DNA from: Lachnospiraceae bacterium
GTDB taxonomy: Bacteria; Bacillota; Clostridia; Lachnospirales; Lachnospiraceae
Assembly: GCA_022766245.1 (NCBI GenBank)
Contig: JALEPL010000033.1
Span: 23,069 to 87,068, forward strand
Length of the DNA stretch: 64,000 nt
Reading direction: 5' to 3'
A program made the translations under genes and the position numbers. Every line of letters begins with the position of its first letter. Position 1 is the first letter of the stretch. Positions 7,050 to 14,505 of this stretch are shown here, one piece after another. The notes under the pieces are model-generated. The model was not told where the DNA came from. It worked only from the letters and a program-made list of their open reading frames with translations, and made no database searches.

Positions 7050-7313
7050 ATGGCTTTCAATAAGACAGACAGAGATGGCGCGCCCGCAAGAAGAAGAGGC
7101 GGCATGCACAGAAGAAAGAAAGTATGTGTATTCTGTGGAAAAGACAATGTAATTGATTACAAGGATACCAACAAGTTAAAGAAGTATATCTCTGAGAGAG
7201 GAAAGATTCTTCCCAGAAGAATCACAGGAAACTGTGCAAAGCATCAGAGAGCACTTACTGTTGCAATCAAGAGAGCCCGTCATATCGCAATCATGCCTTA
7301 TGTACAGGATTAA
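7050..7313 (+). CDS. rpsR: 30S ribosomal protein S18
   Basis: [43 protein letters not shown]. Confidence 0.97.
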
Positions 7314-7329
7314 TTATTAGAAATTTCAG

Positions 7330-7367
7330 GAGTCATTCACAGTTGTGGATGGCTCCGTTTTTTTGCG
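7330..7367 (+). terminator. Rho-independent terminator of the rpsF operon
   Basis: GGAGTCATTCACAGTTGTGGATGGCTCC followed by GTTTTTTT. Confidence 0.7.
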
Positions 7368-7503
7368 TGTCCGTTGTGGTACAATATGCCCTGAGGCTTG
7401 TCCTCAAAGTAGCGCAAAGCGACCTTTGAGGGCTTAGCGAAGAGGCGACGGAGTCCGGGAGGATGCCTTAGGTTCTATTGAGAGTGGAAATAAGCCAGAT
7501 GCC

Positions 7504-8571
7504 CTAAGAGAAAAATATGGTCTCTATCATAATCAGAATAAATACCAACATAAATGCAACTAGAGCATCAAAAAGTACAATACCCAGGTAGTGAGCCCCC
7601 CGTTTCTTACTCTTGCACAAAGGAAAATACCTTTGGACATTGCAGTAATTAAAACCAATGAGTATAAAGGAAAGCATCATAAGCAGGGAAATGATGCGAT
7701 TCAGCCAAAGCAGCGCACCGGTGGTGTTCTCTACTTCCATGGATAAGCAAACATAGAAAATCAGCATATATGCAGGCGCAGACACCAGCATCTTCCAAGG
7801 GGTCATGGTACGAAAACCGGGCGGAAGAAACGAAGCGTCTTTGGGCACTTTTGCAGGCCGTTGGTCTGGGTTCATGATCTGCCAGATGGCAGTTTTCAGT
7901 TCCGTCACATCCTTGTATCTGTCGGAGGGGTTCATTTGGGTACATTTCCCGATGATTTCATGATAGACTTTTGTAGGGACAGAAAGGGAGGATTGAAGTT
8001 CCCTTAATAATATACCCACAGAATAAATGTCGGTCTGAGGAGAGGATGAACCGAATCCATATTGCTCCGGAGCTGCATAACCCTGGGTTCCCAGCAGTAC
8101 TGTATCCTCTGCAGAATCGGTAGAAAAGCGCTTGGCGGCATTGAAATCCAGAAGAACCACATGGTTGTAAGAGGTGATAATAATATTGGTTGGTTTGATA
8201 TCCCTGTGAATCACTGGTGGATTCAGGCTGTGAAGCCTCTCCAGAATACAGCATAAATCGAAAATGTAATGTGCAATGGAGTCATAAGTTAAGTCAGAGG
8301 ATGCCATTTTTTCAGATAGGGAGCAACCGGAAATGTACTCTTCAATCACTGTGAGCTGACCATTTTCCTCACAATAATCGATAATTCTTGGAACACCATC
8401 CATTGGGTGGTGAAAAAGATATTCATAGATGGAAAGGTTGTAAACAGTAAGAATCTTTTTTATGTATATTTTCCCGGTTTCCTGATGCTGTACCAGATAA
8501 ACCTGATGGGGTTCATTGATTACAGCGATAGTTTTATAATAGGAAATAGCAAGCCGTCTGGTGAAATCCAA
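7504..8571 (-). CDS. Hanks-type serine/threonine protein kinase with C-terminal TM helices
   Basis: VIHRDIKPTNIII, LLDFNAAK, GTQGYAAPEQYG, DIYSVGILLREL; hydrophobic C-terminal segments; no PASTA repeats. Confidence 0.92.
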   Translation of the reverse strand: MDFTRRLAISYYKTIAVINEPHQVYLVQHQETGKIYIKKILTVYNLSIYEYLFHHPMDGVPRIIDYCEENGQLTVIEEYISGCSLSEKMASSDLTYDSIAHYIFDLCCILERLHSLNPPVIHRDIKPTNIIITSYNHVVLLDFNAAKRFSTDSAEDTVLLGTQGYAAPEQYGFGSSSPQTDIYSVGILLRELQSSLSVPTKVYHEIIGKCTQMNPSDRYKDVTELKTAIWQIMNPDQRPAKVPKDASFLPPGFRTMTPWKMLVSAPAYMLIFYVCLSMEVENTTGALLWLNRIISLLMMLSFILIGFNYCNVQRYFPLCKSKKRGAHYLGIVLFDALVAFMLVFILIMIETIFFS

Positions 8572-8614
8572 GAAATCACCCCTTTCTTATGTGAGTCGTT
8601 ATATGTACATAATC

Positions 8615-8640
8615 GTATCTGTAAAGTCCCGAACAGATAC
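8615..8640. repeat. Palindromic intergenic repeat, copy 2 (inverted orientation)
   Basis: GTATCTGT AAAGTCCCGA ACAGATAC; followed by GAACAGTTAC at 8643-8652. Confidence 0.7.
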
Positions 8641-8675
8641 CCGAACAGTTACAGTATATCAGATAGGAGGAGCAA

Positions 8676-9137
8676 ATGAGAGAAAAAAATACACGGGAGT
8701 TGGAAAATGTTTTGGGAAGGACGCATTTATCCCAGTTTGAAGGATATTGCAGGGAAAACAAGGACAGTATGTCGGATGGTGGAGATACATTTTCCATCTA
8801 CATCAAAAATCTATTGTGTGAAAAGGGAATCACACAGCAAATGGTTTTCCTGAAGGCGGATATCCCGGAGCGATATGGGTACAAGCTGCTATCGGGGGAG
8901 AAACACACCAGACAGAGAGACGTGATTCTGCGTATCTGCTATGCGGGAGAGCTTACTCTGGAGGAGACTCAGCGAGCCCTGAGAAAATATGAAATGCCGG
9001 AGCTGTATGCAAAGGTACCAAGGGATGCCCTGCTCATGATTATCTTTAACGAGAGGCCGGGAAGCATCATTGATGTAAATGAATTGCTGAAGGAAAAGGG
9101 GATGGAACCTCTGCGGACCAGTGGATTGCAGGATTAA
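8676..9137 (+). CDS. hypothetical HTH-like protein, divergent from the Ser/Thr kinase
   Basis: Complete ORF with SD (ATAGGAGGAGCAAATG); an XRE-like segment (KGITQQMVFLKADIPERYGYKLLSGEKHTRQRDVILRICYAGELTLEETQRAL). Confidence 0.65.
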   Translation: MREKNTRELENVLGRTHLSQFEGYCRENKDSMSDGGDTFSIYIKNLLCEKGITQQMVFLKADIPERYGYKLLSGEKHTRQRDVILRICYAGELTLEETQRALRKYEMPELYAKVPRDALLMIIFNERPGSIIDVNELLKEKGMEPLRTSGLQD

Positions 9138-9170
9138 GGTGAGATTTGGGTTAAGAGGGCGTTTGTATAG

Positions 9171-9620
9171 ATGAAGAAAAACAGAGACAGAATTTTTCTA
9201 TGGATGAACATTTTACTTCCGGTGATGGTGGGCGGTATCACTTACTATCTTATTTCGCCGGAGGTATTTTTTGCGCGGCAACTGGATGCATTATTGGGAA
9301 GTGGCATTCATATTGAGAATGTGGGATCTCAGGGGATTATTTTTCGATGGCTCCGAAATTATGCATTGGATATGATGTGGGGCTATGCATTGTTTTTTAC
9401 CTTGCATCTTATGGTGGCGGATGATACGGCGGAGTGGTGGAAAACTTTTGGGATGGCAGCCGTTTTTTCAGCAGGAATGGAACTTCTGCAAATTATGCCC
9501 GGTGTGGCAGGAACGTTTGATGTGTGGGACATTGTGGTGGAGGTACTGGCGGAGGGGATTGCCGCGGTGGTGTTGCTGTGTTATAAAAACTTCCCACCAC
9601 TGCGGGGGCAACGGTGGTAG
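9171..9620 (+). CDS. VanZ-like family membrane protein
   Basis: Four hydrophobic segments, FSAGMELLQI...TFDVWDIVVEVLA resembling VanZ (E-Q...DVxDixxN/E). Confidence 0.65.
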   Translation: MKKNRDRIFLWMNILLPVMVGGITYYLISPEVFFARQLDALLGSGIHIENVGSQGIIFRWLRNYALDMMWGYALFFTLHLMVADDTAEWWKTFGMAAVFSAGMELLQIMPGVAGTFDVWDIVVEVLAEGIAAVVLLCYKNFPPLRGQRW

Positions 9621-9671
9621 ACCTGTGTATGGTAGAATTATCATATATTTTACAGGCAGGAGGAGTTTATC

Positions 9672-10595
9672 ATGAGAAAGAAAAAGAAATGGCTGGCAAT
9701 GGGACTGTGTTTTACAATTTTTGGAGCGATGGCACTGGGAAGTGGTTCCGATTCAGGGGATAGCAAGGACGTGACCACATCAGGAGAAACCGGTACGGAA
9801 AATGTCGGAGCTTCGGATAGTTCATCCGACACAACATCTGATACGTCATCAACCAATATAACCATAGAGGAGCAGGTGCTGGTGGATGAGGGCGGCATCA
9901 AGATTACTGCAACAGAATACACGACGGATAGTATCTGGGGAGATGGCATCAAGCTTCTGGTGGAAAATGATTCCGACACGGACTACACCGTTGGTTGCGA
10001 TGCGTTGATCGTAAACGATTATATGATTACCGACTTGTTTATAACGGATATCGCAGCGGGGAAGAAAGCCAATGAAACCATGTATCTGTCTTCCACAGAG
10101 TTGGAGGCTGCAGGAATCGACACCGTAGGAAAGGTGGAAATGTATTTCCATGCCTATGATGCAAACATGGATGATCTGTTCCAGAATACTTACGCTGAGG
10201 TGCAGACTTCCGAGTATGAAAACATGGACACCACAGTAAACGATGAGGGAACCGAGTTGTACAATGAGAACGGCATCCGCATCGTGGGAAAGACCGTGGA
10301 TGAAAACAGCTTCTGGGGAACAGCGATTCTTTTATATGTGGAGAATACCTCAGGACAGAATGCAGGAATCTCCGTAGATGATATGTCCATTAACGGATTT
10401 ATGATGAGTCCCTTCTTCTCCACCACAGTCTATGATGGAAAGAAAGCCATCGACGATATCACTATTTTCTCCAGTGATCTGGAGGAAAACGGAATCGAGA
10501 CCATTGAGGATGTTGAGTTGAAATTCCACATTTATAACGCAGATACCTATGAAACGATTACGGATTCGAATCCCATTACATTTTCAGCACAGTAA
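9672..10595 (+). CDS. exported hypothetical protein with two tandem homologous domains
   Basis: Signal-like N-terminus, Ser/Thr/Asp-rich linker, then two ~105-aa repeats (see findings). Confidence 0.7.
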   Translation: MRKKKKWLAMGLCFTIFGAMALGSGSDSGDSKDVTTSGETGTENVGASDSSSDTTSDTSSTNITIEEQVLVDEGGIKITATEYTTDSIWGDGIKLLVENDSDTDYTVGCDALIVNDYMITDLFITDIAAGKKANETMYLSSTELEAAGIDTVGKVEMYFHAYDANMDDLFQNTYAEVQTSEYENMDTTVNDEGTELYNENGIRIVGKTVDENSFWGTAILLYVENTSGQNAGISVDDMSINGFMMSPFFSTTVYDGKKAIDDITIFSSDLEENGIETIEDVELKFHIYNADTYETITDSNPITFSAQ

Positions 10596-10617
10596 AACAG
10601 GGCATGAGTTAATAAGA

Positions 10618-10652
10618 GCGGTTATTGGTTAGCCAATAGCCGCTTTTTTGAT
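10618..10652 (+). terminator. Rho-independent terminator
   Basis: AGCGGTTATTGGTTAGCCAATAGCCGCTTTTTT. Confidence 0.85.
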
Positions 10653-10663
10653 AAGTGGTTGCA

Positions 10664-10753
10664 AGTTTGATTATATGGTGTTATAGTTTGAACAAACAAA
10701 AATAAAGTTTAGAATTAAAAAATAAAGTTTGGAATTCAAAAATAAAGTTTGGT
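10664..10753 (+). repeat. Phased AGTTTRGA motif array upstream of the HTH-ATPase-STAS gene
   Basis: AGTTT at 10664, 10685, 10706, 10726, 10746 (spacings 21, 21, 20, 20). The last three lie in AATAAAGTTTRGAATTMAAA 20-bp direct repeats (10701, 10721, 10741). Confidence 0.85.
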
Positions 10754-10761
10754 AAGGGTAT

Positions 10762-11850
10762 ATGTCATTCACAGAGAAAAAGAGAGAGGAAATCAGGAAA
10801 TATATTTTACGGAAAATAGCGCAGAGAGATGGAGCTGTATTGGAGAAAACCATGGACAGCTTTGGAATCTCTAATACTACAGTAAAGCGCTATCTCAAAG
10901 ATGCAATAGCTGGCGGAATTATTGAAAGTGTGGAAGGGGAGGAATGTCCCTATCGGCTGGTTCAGAAGGAGTGCCGGGTTCTAGTGTCTTTGGAGGAAAG
11001 CAGGTTGGAGGAGGATGTGCTGTTTGATCAACACATAGCGCCATATCTTTCAGAATGCAATGAGCGAGCACGTGCGATATGGCAGTATTGTGGCGCAGAA
11101 ATTCTGAATAATGCTATTGAACATTCCGGAGGAACAAGGATTGGCATAGTAGTTCAATGCAATGCATTGAATACCACAGTAGTAATTTCTGATGACGGAG
11201 TGGGAGTTTTTTCTACCTTAATGGAGTATATGAAGGGCAATGGATGGGAGCATCCTCGTGCTGAGGATGCCCTGGTGGAGCTTTACAAAGGGAAAATCAC
11301 CTGCGACAGCCGGAATCATTCCGGTGAGGGAATATTTTTTTCATCTAAGATGATGGATTCATTTATTCTGTGGTCGGATTCATTGATTCTGAAATTTGGA
11401 AATCAGGAGAAGACGGAAGTAGTGCAGTCGCATCTGGCTGCCTATGCATCAAGAATATGGAAGGAGAGTACCATGGTTATGATGACATTAGAAAATGAGA
11501 CAGAGCGAGAGGCAGGAAAAGTATTTGATCTCTATGCTGATGTGGATGATGGCTTTGTGAGAACACGGATACCGGTAAAGGAAGCCTGCATTACCGGCGA
11601 ACCGGTAGCCCGCTCCCAGGCAAGGAGAATCTGTCATCGCCTGGAAACATTTCGTGAGGTGATATTGGATTTTTCAGATGTGACTATGATGGGACAGGGC
11701 TTTGCTGATGAATTGTTCCGGGTTTATGCCGTGGCACATCCTGAGGTAATGCTTCGACCGGTGAATATGTTGCCGCAGGTGGAGCGGATGATTCGGCATG
11801 TTGGAAGGGGGGAATCCGCAAATAATATTATTTTTCCGGCTAGTTGCTGA
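10762..11850 (+). CDS. HTH - histidine-kinase-like ATPase - STAS-like (DUF4325) regulatory protein
   Basis: N-terminal wHTH (VLEKTMDSFGISNTTVKRYLKDAIAGGII); N-box EILNNAIEHS; G1 ISDDGVGVF; G2 HSGEGIFFSSKMMD; C-terminal VILDFSDVTMMGQGFADELFRVY typical of DUF4325. Confidence 0.85.
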   Translation: MSFTEKKREEIRKYILRKIAQRDGAVLEKTMDSFGISNTTVKRYLKDAIAGGIIESVEGEECPYRLVQKECRVLVSLEESRLEEDVLFDQHIAPYLSECNERARAIWQYCGAEILNNAIEHSGGTRIGIVVQCNALNTTVVISDDGVGVFSTLMEYMKGNGWEHPRAEDALVELYKGKITCDSRNHSGEGIFFSSKMMDSFILWSDSLILKFGNQEKTEVVQSHLAAYASRIWKESTMVMMTLENETEREAGKVFDLYADVDDGFVRTRIPVKEACITGEPVARSQARRICHRLETFREVILDFSDVTMMGQGFADELFRVYAVAHPEVMLRPVNMLPQVERMIRHVGRGESANNIIFPASC

Positions 11851-11964
11851 TGTTTTGGTGGAAAATACAGTTTGTGAAGATAGTGTCAAGTCAAATATGA
11901 AAAACGACACAAGGGCTCCGTCACCTGCGGCGACACCTCGTGTCAAGAAATAAGGGGATAAGAT

Positions 11965-12366
11965 ATGAAAGTACAGGATTTAAAGGTAGCAGTGGTGGAC
12001 GATAATGTTTTTAAGTCCATGGAAATCAAACGGGCATTGGAATTCAATGGAATATCAAATATTACATTGCTGAACAATCAGGAAGATGTGTGGAATCTAT
12101 TGAATCGGGAAGAAGTGGATCTGATTGTGACGGATATGCATTATCCCTTGGAAAAAGGCGCAGAAGCGGATCTTCATGCGGGATATATTTTGCTGGAAAA
12201 AATGAAGGAAAAGGGTATTCAGATTCCGGTGATCATCTGTTCCAGCCTGAACTATCTGCCTGAAGGAGCAGTAGGCGTGGTTTGGTACAATAGGATGAAG
12301 GATCTGAACTTCGAGTTCAAGGAAGTGCTGGGGAGGGTGATGGATAATCTCTCAAAAGAACTTTAA
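11965..12366 (+). CDS. stand-alone receiver-like (REC) protein
   Basis: KVAVVDDNVFKSMEIKRALE...EVDLIVTDMHYP...IQIPVIICSSL; CheY-like fold with Asp acceptor, no output domain. Confidence 0.75.
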   Translation: MKVQDLKVAVVDDNVFKSMEIKRALEFNGISNITLLNNQEDVWNLLNREEVDLIVTDMHYPLEKGAEADLHAGYILLEKMKEKGIQIPVIICSSLNYLPEGAVGVVWYNRMKDLNFEFKEVLGRVMDNLSKEL

Positions 12367-12453
12367 AATCCCTATATTTCATGCTATAATATCCTCGGCA
12401 GACAAGACGCTCTGCCGGGGATATTACTTTCTCATGCCAAAAGGAGAAAAGCT

Positions 12454-14505
12454 ATGACAAGAAGCATAAAGCTAAAGGGGCGGCTGAAAAGTTACATGCA
12501 GCTTCCATTGTTTTTGACCATATTACTAATCGTTCTGAATGTACCCATGTACTTTTGGGATGTGCGTGCCGGCGTGGTGGTTTCGGTTTTTCTGGTTATC
12601 TATATAATTGTGGTGGCCATAACATATAATAGTTATAAACCGGTGCTGGTTAACGAATTGATTAATTTTGCGACGCAGTATGGAACTGTACAAAAAAAGC
12701 TCATCAATGAATTTGAGATTCCCTATGCCTTGTTGGACTATAATGGAAGGGTTTTGTGGGTCAATGAAAAGTTTACCGAGCTTACCGGAAAAGATAAGCG
12801 GTTTCATAAGTCCATCTCTACAATTTTTCCCGGGATTACCAAGGAACTGATTCGTCAGGAGGAGAATATCGAGAGTCTGGATGTTGTGTGGGAAGATCAT
12901 TATTTCCGTGTGAAAATGAACAAGATTTTTTTCGAGGAAATGATGGAGAGCAGTCAGATGGTGGAGCTGCATCAGGCAGAAGAGTATCTGACAGCGGTTT
13001 ACCTGTTTGATGAGACTCAGCTGAATCAGTGCCGGCAGGAAAATGAGGATCAGAAGCTGGTAGCTTCTCTGGTATATATTGACAATTATGAAGAGGCATT
13101 GAACAGCATCGAGGACGTGAAGCGGTCTCTGCTCATTGCATTGATTGAGCGGAAAATTAATAAGTATTTCTCCCAGATGGATGGGCTGGTGCGAAAAATC
13201 GAGAAGGATAAATTCTTCGTAGTGTTCCAGCATAAGTATCTGGCGCAGATGGAAGAGAACAAGTTCAGCCTGTTGGAGGACGTAAAGACCGTTAAGGTGG
13301 GAAACGAGATGGCAGTGACCTTAAGCATTGGAATCGGTGTCATGGGTGCTACCTATACGCAGAATTATGAGTATGCCCGAATGGCCATCGATCTGGCATT
13401 GGGTCGTGGCGGAGACCAGGTGGTGTTAAAGAAGGGTGGAGAAATTTCCTACTATGGTGGCAACACCAAGCAGGTGGATAAGAATACCCGTGTAAAGGCC
13501 CGTGTAAAGGCGCATGCTCTTCGGGAGATTCTGGAAAGCAAGGAGCATGTGATGATTATGGGGCACAGTATTCCGGACGTGGATGCCTTTGGAGCGGCGG
13601 TGGGAATATACTGTGCGGCTAAGGTGCTTGGCAAGCATGCGCAGATTGTCATCAATGAGGTGACTTCTTCCCTGCGGCCCATCAAGGATAGCTTTACTGT
13701 GGATCACGGGTATCCGGAGGATCTGTTTTTGACCAGCGAGCGGGCATTGGATGCCATTGACAGCAATACGCTGGTGGTGGTAGTGGATACCAATCGCCCC
13801 AGCTATACGGAGTGCCCGGATCTTTTGAAGCGGGCAAAGAGCGTGGTGGTATTTGACCATCACAGACAGGGAAGCGAGGTAATCAAAAATCCTTTGCTTT
13901 CCTATATAGAACCCTATGCGTCTTCTACCTGTGAGATGATCGCAGAGGTGCTGCAGTATTTTTCTGAAAATATTAAACTCACACCGGAGGAGGCGGACTG
14001 TATTTACGCCGGAATCCTCATCGATACCAGCAACTTTATGACAAAAACCGGTGTGCGTACCTTTGAAGCGGCAGCTTATTTGCGGCGATGTGGTGCAGAG
14101 GTGACCAGAGTTCGCAAGATGCTGCAGAATAATATGAGTGATTATAAAGCGCGTGCGGAGGTGATTCGGCATGCTCAGGTATATCGGGGCTCCTTTGCCA
14201 TTTCCATCTGTCCCGCAGGGGAGATTGAGAGTCCAACCGTGGTGGGAGCTCAGGCGGCAAATGAATTGCTGAATATTATCGGAATCCGTGCATCCTTTGT
14301 ACTGACAGAGTATCAGGGAAAAATTTATGTCAGCTCCCGGTCCATTGATGAGATTAATGTACAGCGGATTATGGAGCGGTTGGGTGGCGGTGGCCATATG
14401 AATACAGCAGGATGTCAGATTCAGGGCTGCAGCTTAAAGCAGGCAGAAAAACTAATTGAAGATACCATCGATGAGATGATTGAGGAAGGAGATATTAAAG
14501 AATGA
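12454..14505 (+). CDS. gdpP: cyclic-di-AMP phosphodiesterase GdpP-type (PAS, degenerate GGDEF, DHH-DHHA1)
   Basis: Two TM helices, PAS-like [21 protein letters not shown], degenerate GGDEF, DHH motifs [17 protein letters not shown] and [22 protein letters not shown]. Confidence 0.95.

Follow-up and report, generated by a model that had tools for sequence, protein, structure and literature searches.

Gene A of the window (the whole 64,000-nucleotide stretch of Lachnospiraceae DNA analysed here) probably encodes a solitary autoregulator, which would act as a repressor in the window's clade and would be gated by ATP and by a STAS-like domain that cannot be phosphorylated; we give this reading a probability of roughly 0.6. 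The domain architecture, the motif conservation, the repeat array at the promoter, the promoter spacing, the covariation with the recognition helix and the absence of a receiver partner were all computed. A preliminary description had proposed a compact module of gene A with the adjacent receiver gene (gene R), and contained neither the self-operator array nor the loss of the STAS phospho-acceptor. Both open reading frames were recovered as it claimed (ORFs, Pfam, model), gene R as a receiver and gene A with the following features:

10762-11850, + strand: gene A, 362 aa, winged helix-turn-helix (wHTH), SpoIIAB-like GHKL ATPase and DUF4325 STAS-like domain (ORF, Pfam, model)
10762-10962, + strand: N-terminal wHTH, residues 1-67 (model secondary structure, HTH matches)
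approximately residues 36-46, + strand: recognition helix, tracking the operator sequence
10969-11496, + strand: GHKL ATPase domain, approximately residues 70-245 (Pfam, alignment, model, fold match)
11545-11805, + strand: STAS-like domain, approximately residues 262-348, with Gln312 at the phospho-serine position (Pfam, alignment)

In Pfam searches DUF4325 (PF14213) was matched at residues 286-338 (E 2e-13, 50.1 bits against a gathering cut-off of 23), HATPase_c and HATPase_c_2 were matched at 2e-4 and 1e-3, both below the cut-off here and above it in some relatives, and weak HTH matches covered residues 3-55. No HisKA/DHp domain with a phospho-histidine was matched in gene A, in line with the earlier statement that no histidine dimerisation domain is visible. 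The helices and strands of an AlphaFold2 model (pLDDT 93.8, pTM 0.89) fit a wHTH, then a GHKL domain, then a STAS-like domain, and its top PDB fold match was to SpoIIAB chains (1til_E, Foldseek E 3.4e-5, probability 1.00, target TM 0.77). The ATP motifs (N-box E113/N116/N117/H121; G1 D144-G146-G148; G2 H186-SGEGIFF), already described as intact, proved nearly invariant, residues E113, N116, H121, D144, G146, G148, G188 and G190 being kept in 86 of 87 aligned relatives with a truncated sequence as the exception. Since the relatives were partly found by their N-box and G2 motifs, with G1 unused in finding them, this invariance is partly the product of selection; all three motifs are also kept in the Lachnospiraceae relatives found without motif selection. 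By its model, the GHKL domain of gene A resembles the anti-sigma kinase SpoIIAB, is of the anti-sigma type and is predicted to bind ATP.

Within the STAS-like domain R284, S285, R289, Q312 and F314 are nearly invariant among the 87 aligned sequences, S285 being an invariant hydroxyl residue away from that of the phospho-position. The phospho-position was located by aligning a profile of this domain in the gene A family with the vapKSC-like DUF4325 protein of the same genome, of which the serine in MISPF falls opposite Gln312. The glutamine is found in 85 of 87 relatives at the position aligned with this VapS-like serine, and a serine or threonine anywhere in residues 309-314 in only 4 of 87. 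Consequently, judged from sequence, a literal anti-sigma/anti-anti-sigma phospho-switch of the SpoIIAA type, working in cis, is unlikely. The earlier comparison of gene A to such a pair set on a DNA-binding output is supported for the fusion of a SpoIIAB-like GHKL domain, a STAS-like domain and a wHTH, while the loss of the acceptor serine argues against a literal phospho-switch.

The promoter of gene A carries four TATAGTTT/AATAAAGTTT copies spaced by 20-21 bp, which begin at the -10 box and end close to the start codon:

10659-10687, + strand: predicted sigma-70-type promoter of gene A, TTGCAA-17-TATAGT (promoter scan)
10681-10689, + strand: candidate operator repeat copy 1 (TTATAGTTT), sharing bases with the -10 box, the following copy at a distance of 21 bp
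10701-10710, + strand: candidate operator repeat copy 2 (AATAAAGTTT) (repeat analysis)
10721-10730, + strand: candidate operator repeat copy 3 (repeat analysis)
10741-10750, + strand: candidate operator repeat copy 4, 11 bp 5' of the start codon (repeat analysis)

Copy 1 (TTATAGTTT) includes the predicted -10 hexamer, and copies 2-4 are evenly spaced (C/A)AAAAATAAAGTTT units with a TRF period of 20. Searched with up to one mismatch in the 2.44 Mb window genome, the 17-bp form of the motif, AAAAATAAAGTTTNGAA, occurs only as copies 2-4. Tandem sites elsewhere in that genome, looked for as a wider regulon, did not exceed a reversed-pattern control, and in other genomes nothing stood out except sites adjoining gene A.

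Upstream of 79 non-redundant relatives, a direct repeat at lag 21 was found in 36 (1.0 expected, z=37.6), at lag 22 in 10 and at lag 20 in 4, with harmonics at 42 and 44 and the remaining lags near background; approximately 30 of the 79 have no array at the threshold used, and the arrays hold two to four copies. A second set of 25 relatives from viral contigs gave lag 21 in 6 (0.23 expected) and lag 22 in 7 (0.17 expected), and 160 neighbouring promoters of the same loci, taken as a control, gave 2 (0.9 expected) and 2 (0.57 expected) respectively. The repeats fall into classes (TATAGTT, CGAAT, GAGTAAT, ACAAWTA, TTTGGAA) that differ by clade and match the classes of recognition helix. Repeat sequence correlates with the recognition helix after correction for how far the remainder of the protein has diverged (partial Mantel r=0.25, p=0.0005), and not significantly with the rest of the protein given the helix (0.066, p=0.10); because a partial Mantel test leaves some phylogeny in, this covariation supports self-binding and does not prove it.

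The placement of the array differs between clades. In 14 of 16 loci of the window's clade the -10 element TATAGTT is itself copy 1 with a further copy 3' of it, which by sequence is the position of a repressor, while in CGAAT-type clades exactly 5 bp separate the last copy from the -35 box 3' of it (17/18), a location compatible with an activator as well as with a repressor. The motif search behind these counts was designed after the pattern had been seen, so that they are a description and not an independent test. Overall, arrays overlap predicted promoters in 25 of 44 cases against 22.2 expected, which is not above chance, and the geometric argument therefore rests on the fixed spacing.

Some arrays occur on both sides of the gene. 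At L041 a near-identical direct repeat of approximately 50 bp of the operator array lies on each side of gene A, at L123 the array flanks it as a direct repeat with a palindrome, at L091 the second array is inverted, and at L125 a 16-bp direct repeat flanks promoter and gene. The downstream array of L123 precedes a ClpB-like gene which has a CIRCE-like inverted repeat of its own. The idea of a mobile cassette bounded by repeats of its own was considered and rejected, clear flanking repeats being present in just about 4 of 77 loci.

Relatives of gene A were found in 12 of 149 other Lachnospiraceae-family genomes, eleven at 36-60% identity over nearly the full length and the twelfth as a C-terminal fragment of 82 residues located at the end of a contig. 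A scan of genome contigs yielded at least 547 related stretches, of which the 80 that were kept include Nitrospira, Burkholderiales and Deltaproteobacteria MAGs, and 300 genomes drawn across the phylum contained the family in 3, the window's own genome among them; the family is thus broad but patchy. Neighbours differ among the loci read gene by gene, and no conserved sigma factor, STAS substrate or separate STAS-wHTH gene was present in those examined. One relative (L180:4001-5050) stands directly 5' of terminase genes on a prophage-like contig, as a lone cargo gene. Searches of plasmid and phage records gave no match.

The receiver gene lies downstream of gene A:

11965-12366, + strand: gene R, 133 aa, an atypical receiver standing alone next to gene A, with no recurrent association (ORF, Pfam, neighbourhoods)
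12387-12426, + strand: terminator-like hairpin 3' of gene R (hairpin scan)

Gene R matches Response_reg (E 3e-9) over residues 8-95 only. It keeps D13, D57 and S94 and has Tyr-Asn/Ser at the usual C-terminal lysine motif, where receivers normally carry a conserved lysine. Three genomes have relatives of it at 51-55% identity and four others at 27-38%; these stand alone by unrelated genes. RNA structure between the two genes was no better than in shuffles, and a search of solved structures with gene R was uninformative. Gene R also matches the PADLOC candidate PDC-M60B (E 9e-8), its relatives weakly, and the partner PDC-M60A of the candidate PDC-M60 had no match in four genomes, in which the control also matched nowhere. 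Seven further genomes of this genus also carry the gdpP-like gene, and the interval from rpsR to this gene (7313-12454 in the window) is variable in the genus, measuring approximately 250 bp in one of the seven and holding roughly 4 kb of different genes in another genome. As the gap is so short in that one genome, genes A and R both lie in a variable accessory stretch, which in the window also holds a protein-kinase-like ORF with a C-terminal hydrophobic part (7504-8571, - strand, HRDIKPTN).

The recurring receiver partner, for which the preliminary description had suggested a neighbourhood analysis, was not found. A profile search of the 6 kb around each of 86 gene A relatives, 79 of which have 1 kb or more of sequence downstream, detected no gene R-family receiver; 11 Lachnospiraceae neighbourhoods and a set of 80 gene A loci held no receiver partner, and none stands beside the 81%-identical relative L057. 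The two genes are adjacent on the same strand, 114 bp apart with no predicted terminator between them, and D13 and D57 of gene R are conserved, as would suit a signalling module in which the GHKL domain or a trans kinase phosphorylates the receiver and the receiver controls the DNA-binding protein. Such a module is nevertheless very improbable given the empty neighbourhoods, the receivers that occur elsewhere with no gene A alongside, the lack of a DHp/HisKA domain in gene A and the missing C-terminal lysine motif in gene R. That gene A binds the array is something that we infer, and the array could accordingly belong to a different regulator, with gene A as one target; this too is highly unlikely, as the repeat sequence tracks the recognition helix of gene A, changes between clades and is found nowhere else in the window genome.

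Gene A might instead act in trans, as an anti-sigma factor or as a kinase of STAS proteins, with the HTH and the array merely steadying its level. SpoIIAB is its nearest fold, the sole operator found in the window genome is its own, and that genome encodes another DUF4325 STAS-like protein with a serine at the phospho-position; against these stand the lack of a conserved sigma-factor or STAS-substrate neighbour in the loci examined and the fused STAS-like domain, which would compete for the active site, so that we regard this, the main alternative, as unlikely while keeping it in view. It is doubtful, somewhat more strongly, that gene A is a CapK-like DNA-damage sensor in one polypeptide, freed from its promoter by single-stranded DNA in a GHKL/STAS-like groove. 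CapK and gene A have three domain types in common and CapS controls its own expression and is released once ssDNA has been sensed by CapK (PMC13373217), but the domain order differs, a CapS gene is lacking and the phospho-serine is missing.

In the preferred reading, gene A as a solitary autoregulator, the wHTH would bind the head-to-tail array of sites 20-22 bp apart over its own promoter, and since the array takes in the -10 box and continues up to the start codon, this binding should repress gene A. The SpoIIAB-like GHKL domain would bind ATP and, together with the STAS-like domain, most likely govern the assembly of protomers on the array. With Gln312 in place of the acceptor serine, the STAS-like domain would be a non-phosphorylatable pseudo-substrate, and control may be exerted through nucleotide state or a ligand rather than through STAS-like phosphorylation. 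Gene R would be an unrelated accessory neighbour. The binding of the array, the repression, the gating by ATP and the STAS-like domain and the physiological role are what we infer here. Against this explanation count the relatives with no array, the activator-compatible placement in the CGAAT-type clades and the chance-level overlap of arrays with predicted promoters. The two-fold symmetry of a SpoIIAB-type dimer would also suit inverted repeats better, and no second target was found in the window genome, which makes the use of a single-target regulator hard to account for.

Sites that run in the same direction two helical turns apart suggest protomers aligned on one face of the DNA. SpoIIAB binds SpoIIAA through GHKL and STAS surfaces, which makes the GHKL and STAS-like domains natural surfaces for assembly, and direct repeats would be consistent with an ATP-dependent grip between neighbouring protomers that no phosphorylation undoes. 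A specific form of this, in which gene A polymerises head to tail on the array as the ATP-bound GHKL domain of one protomer grips the non-phosphorylatable STAS-like domain of the next, is speculative and on balance unlikely. If true, the interface of an anti-sigma kinase and its substrate would have become an ATP-gated DNA filament with its own gene as sole target, a pattern retained in distant bacterial groups.

The function of DUF4325 is listed as unknown, and the domain was rarely mentioned in the literature searched; a widespread one-gene regulator made of an anti-sigma kinase, a STAS-like pseudo-substrate and a DNA-binding domain, with a recognisable array, gives it a testable role. The array would make the likely DNA target of each family member readable from its sequence, and gene A shows how a partner-switching pair could have become a one-piece DNA switch.

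Among known systems, two-component traits are absent from gene A, with no HisKA/DHp domain in Pfam and no recurrent receiver partner at 86 loci. SpoIIAB/SpoIIAA and RsbW/RsbV are like it in the GHKL fold and the STAS-like partner domain, and unlike it in being separate proteins with a phosphorylated serine, a sigma-factor target and no HTH. VapKSC, a toxin-antitoxin operon (PMC13373217), resembles gene A in combining a STAS-like protein with a GHKL kinase. The window genome contains a vapKSC-like operon (contig C20, L146:5302-7094) of a 295-aa STAS-GHKL kinase-like protein, a 113-aa DUF4325 protein and a 183-aa PIN nuclease, and gene A has no significant sequence similarity to this VapK-like kinase. 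CapK/CapS (PMC13373217, EMBO J 2026) consists of two genes, HTH-STAS-GHKL and STAS-wHTH, upstream of immune operons; its STAS serine is phosphorylatable, the equivalent residue in CapS being the site phosphorylated by CapK, its sites are palindromic, and CapS is proposed to assemble along DNA (PMC13373217). Gene A is not classed as CapK or CapS because two defining features are absent, a kinase gene with a STAS-wHTH gene of its own behind it in the loci examined and the conserved phosphorylatable serine, replaced by Gln312. CapK/CapS is nonetheless the nearest described system, resembling gene A in its GHKL, STAS and (w)HTH domains and in the autoregulated DNA binding proposed for gene A, while gene A is a single polypeptide in the order wHTH-GHKL-STAS, with glutamine for serine, direct-repeat sites and no conserved operon.
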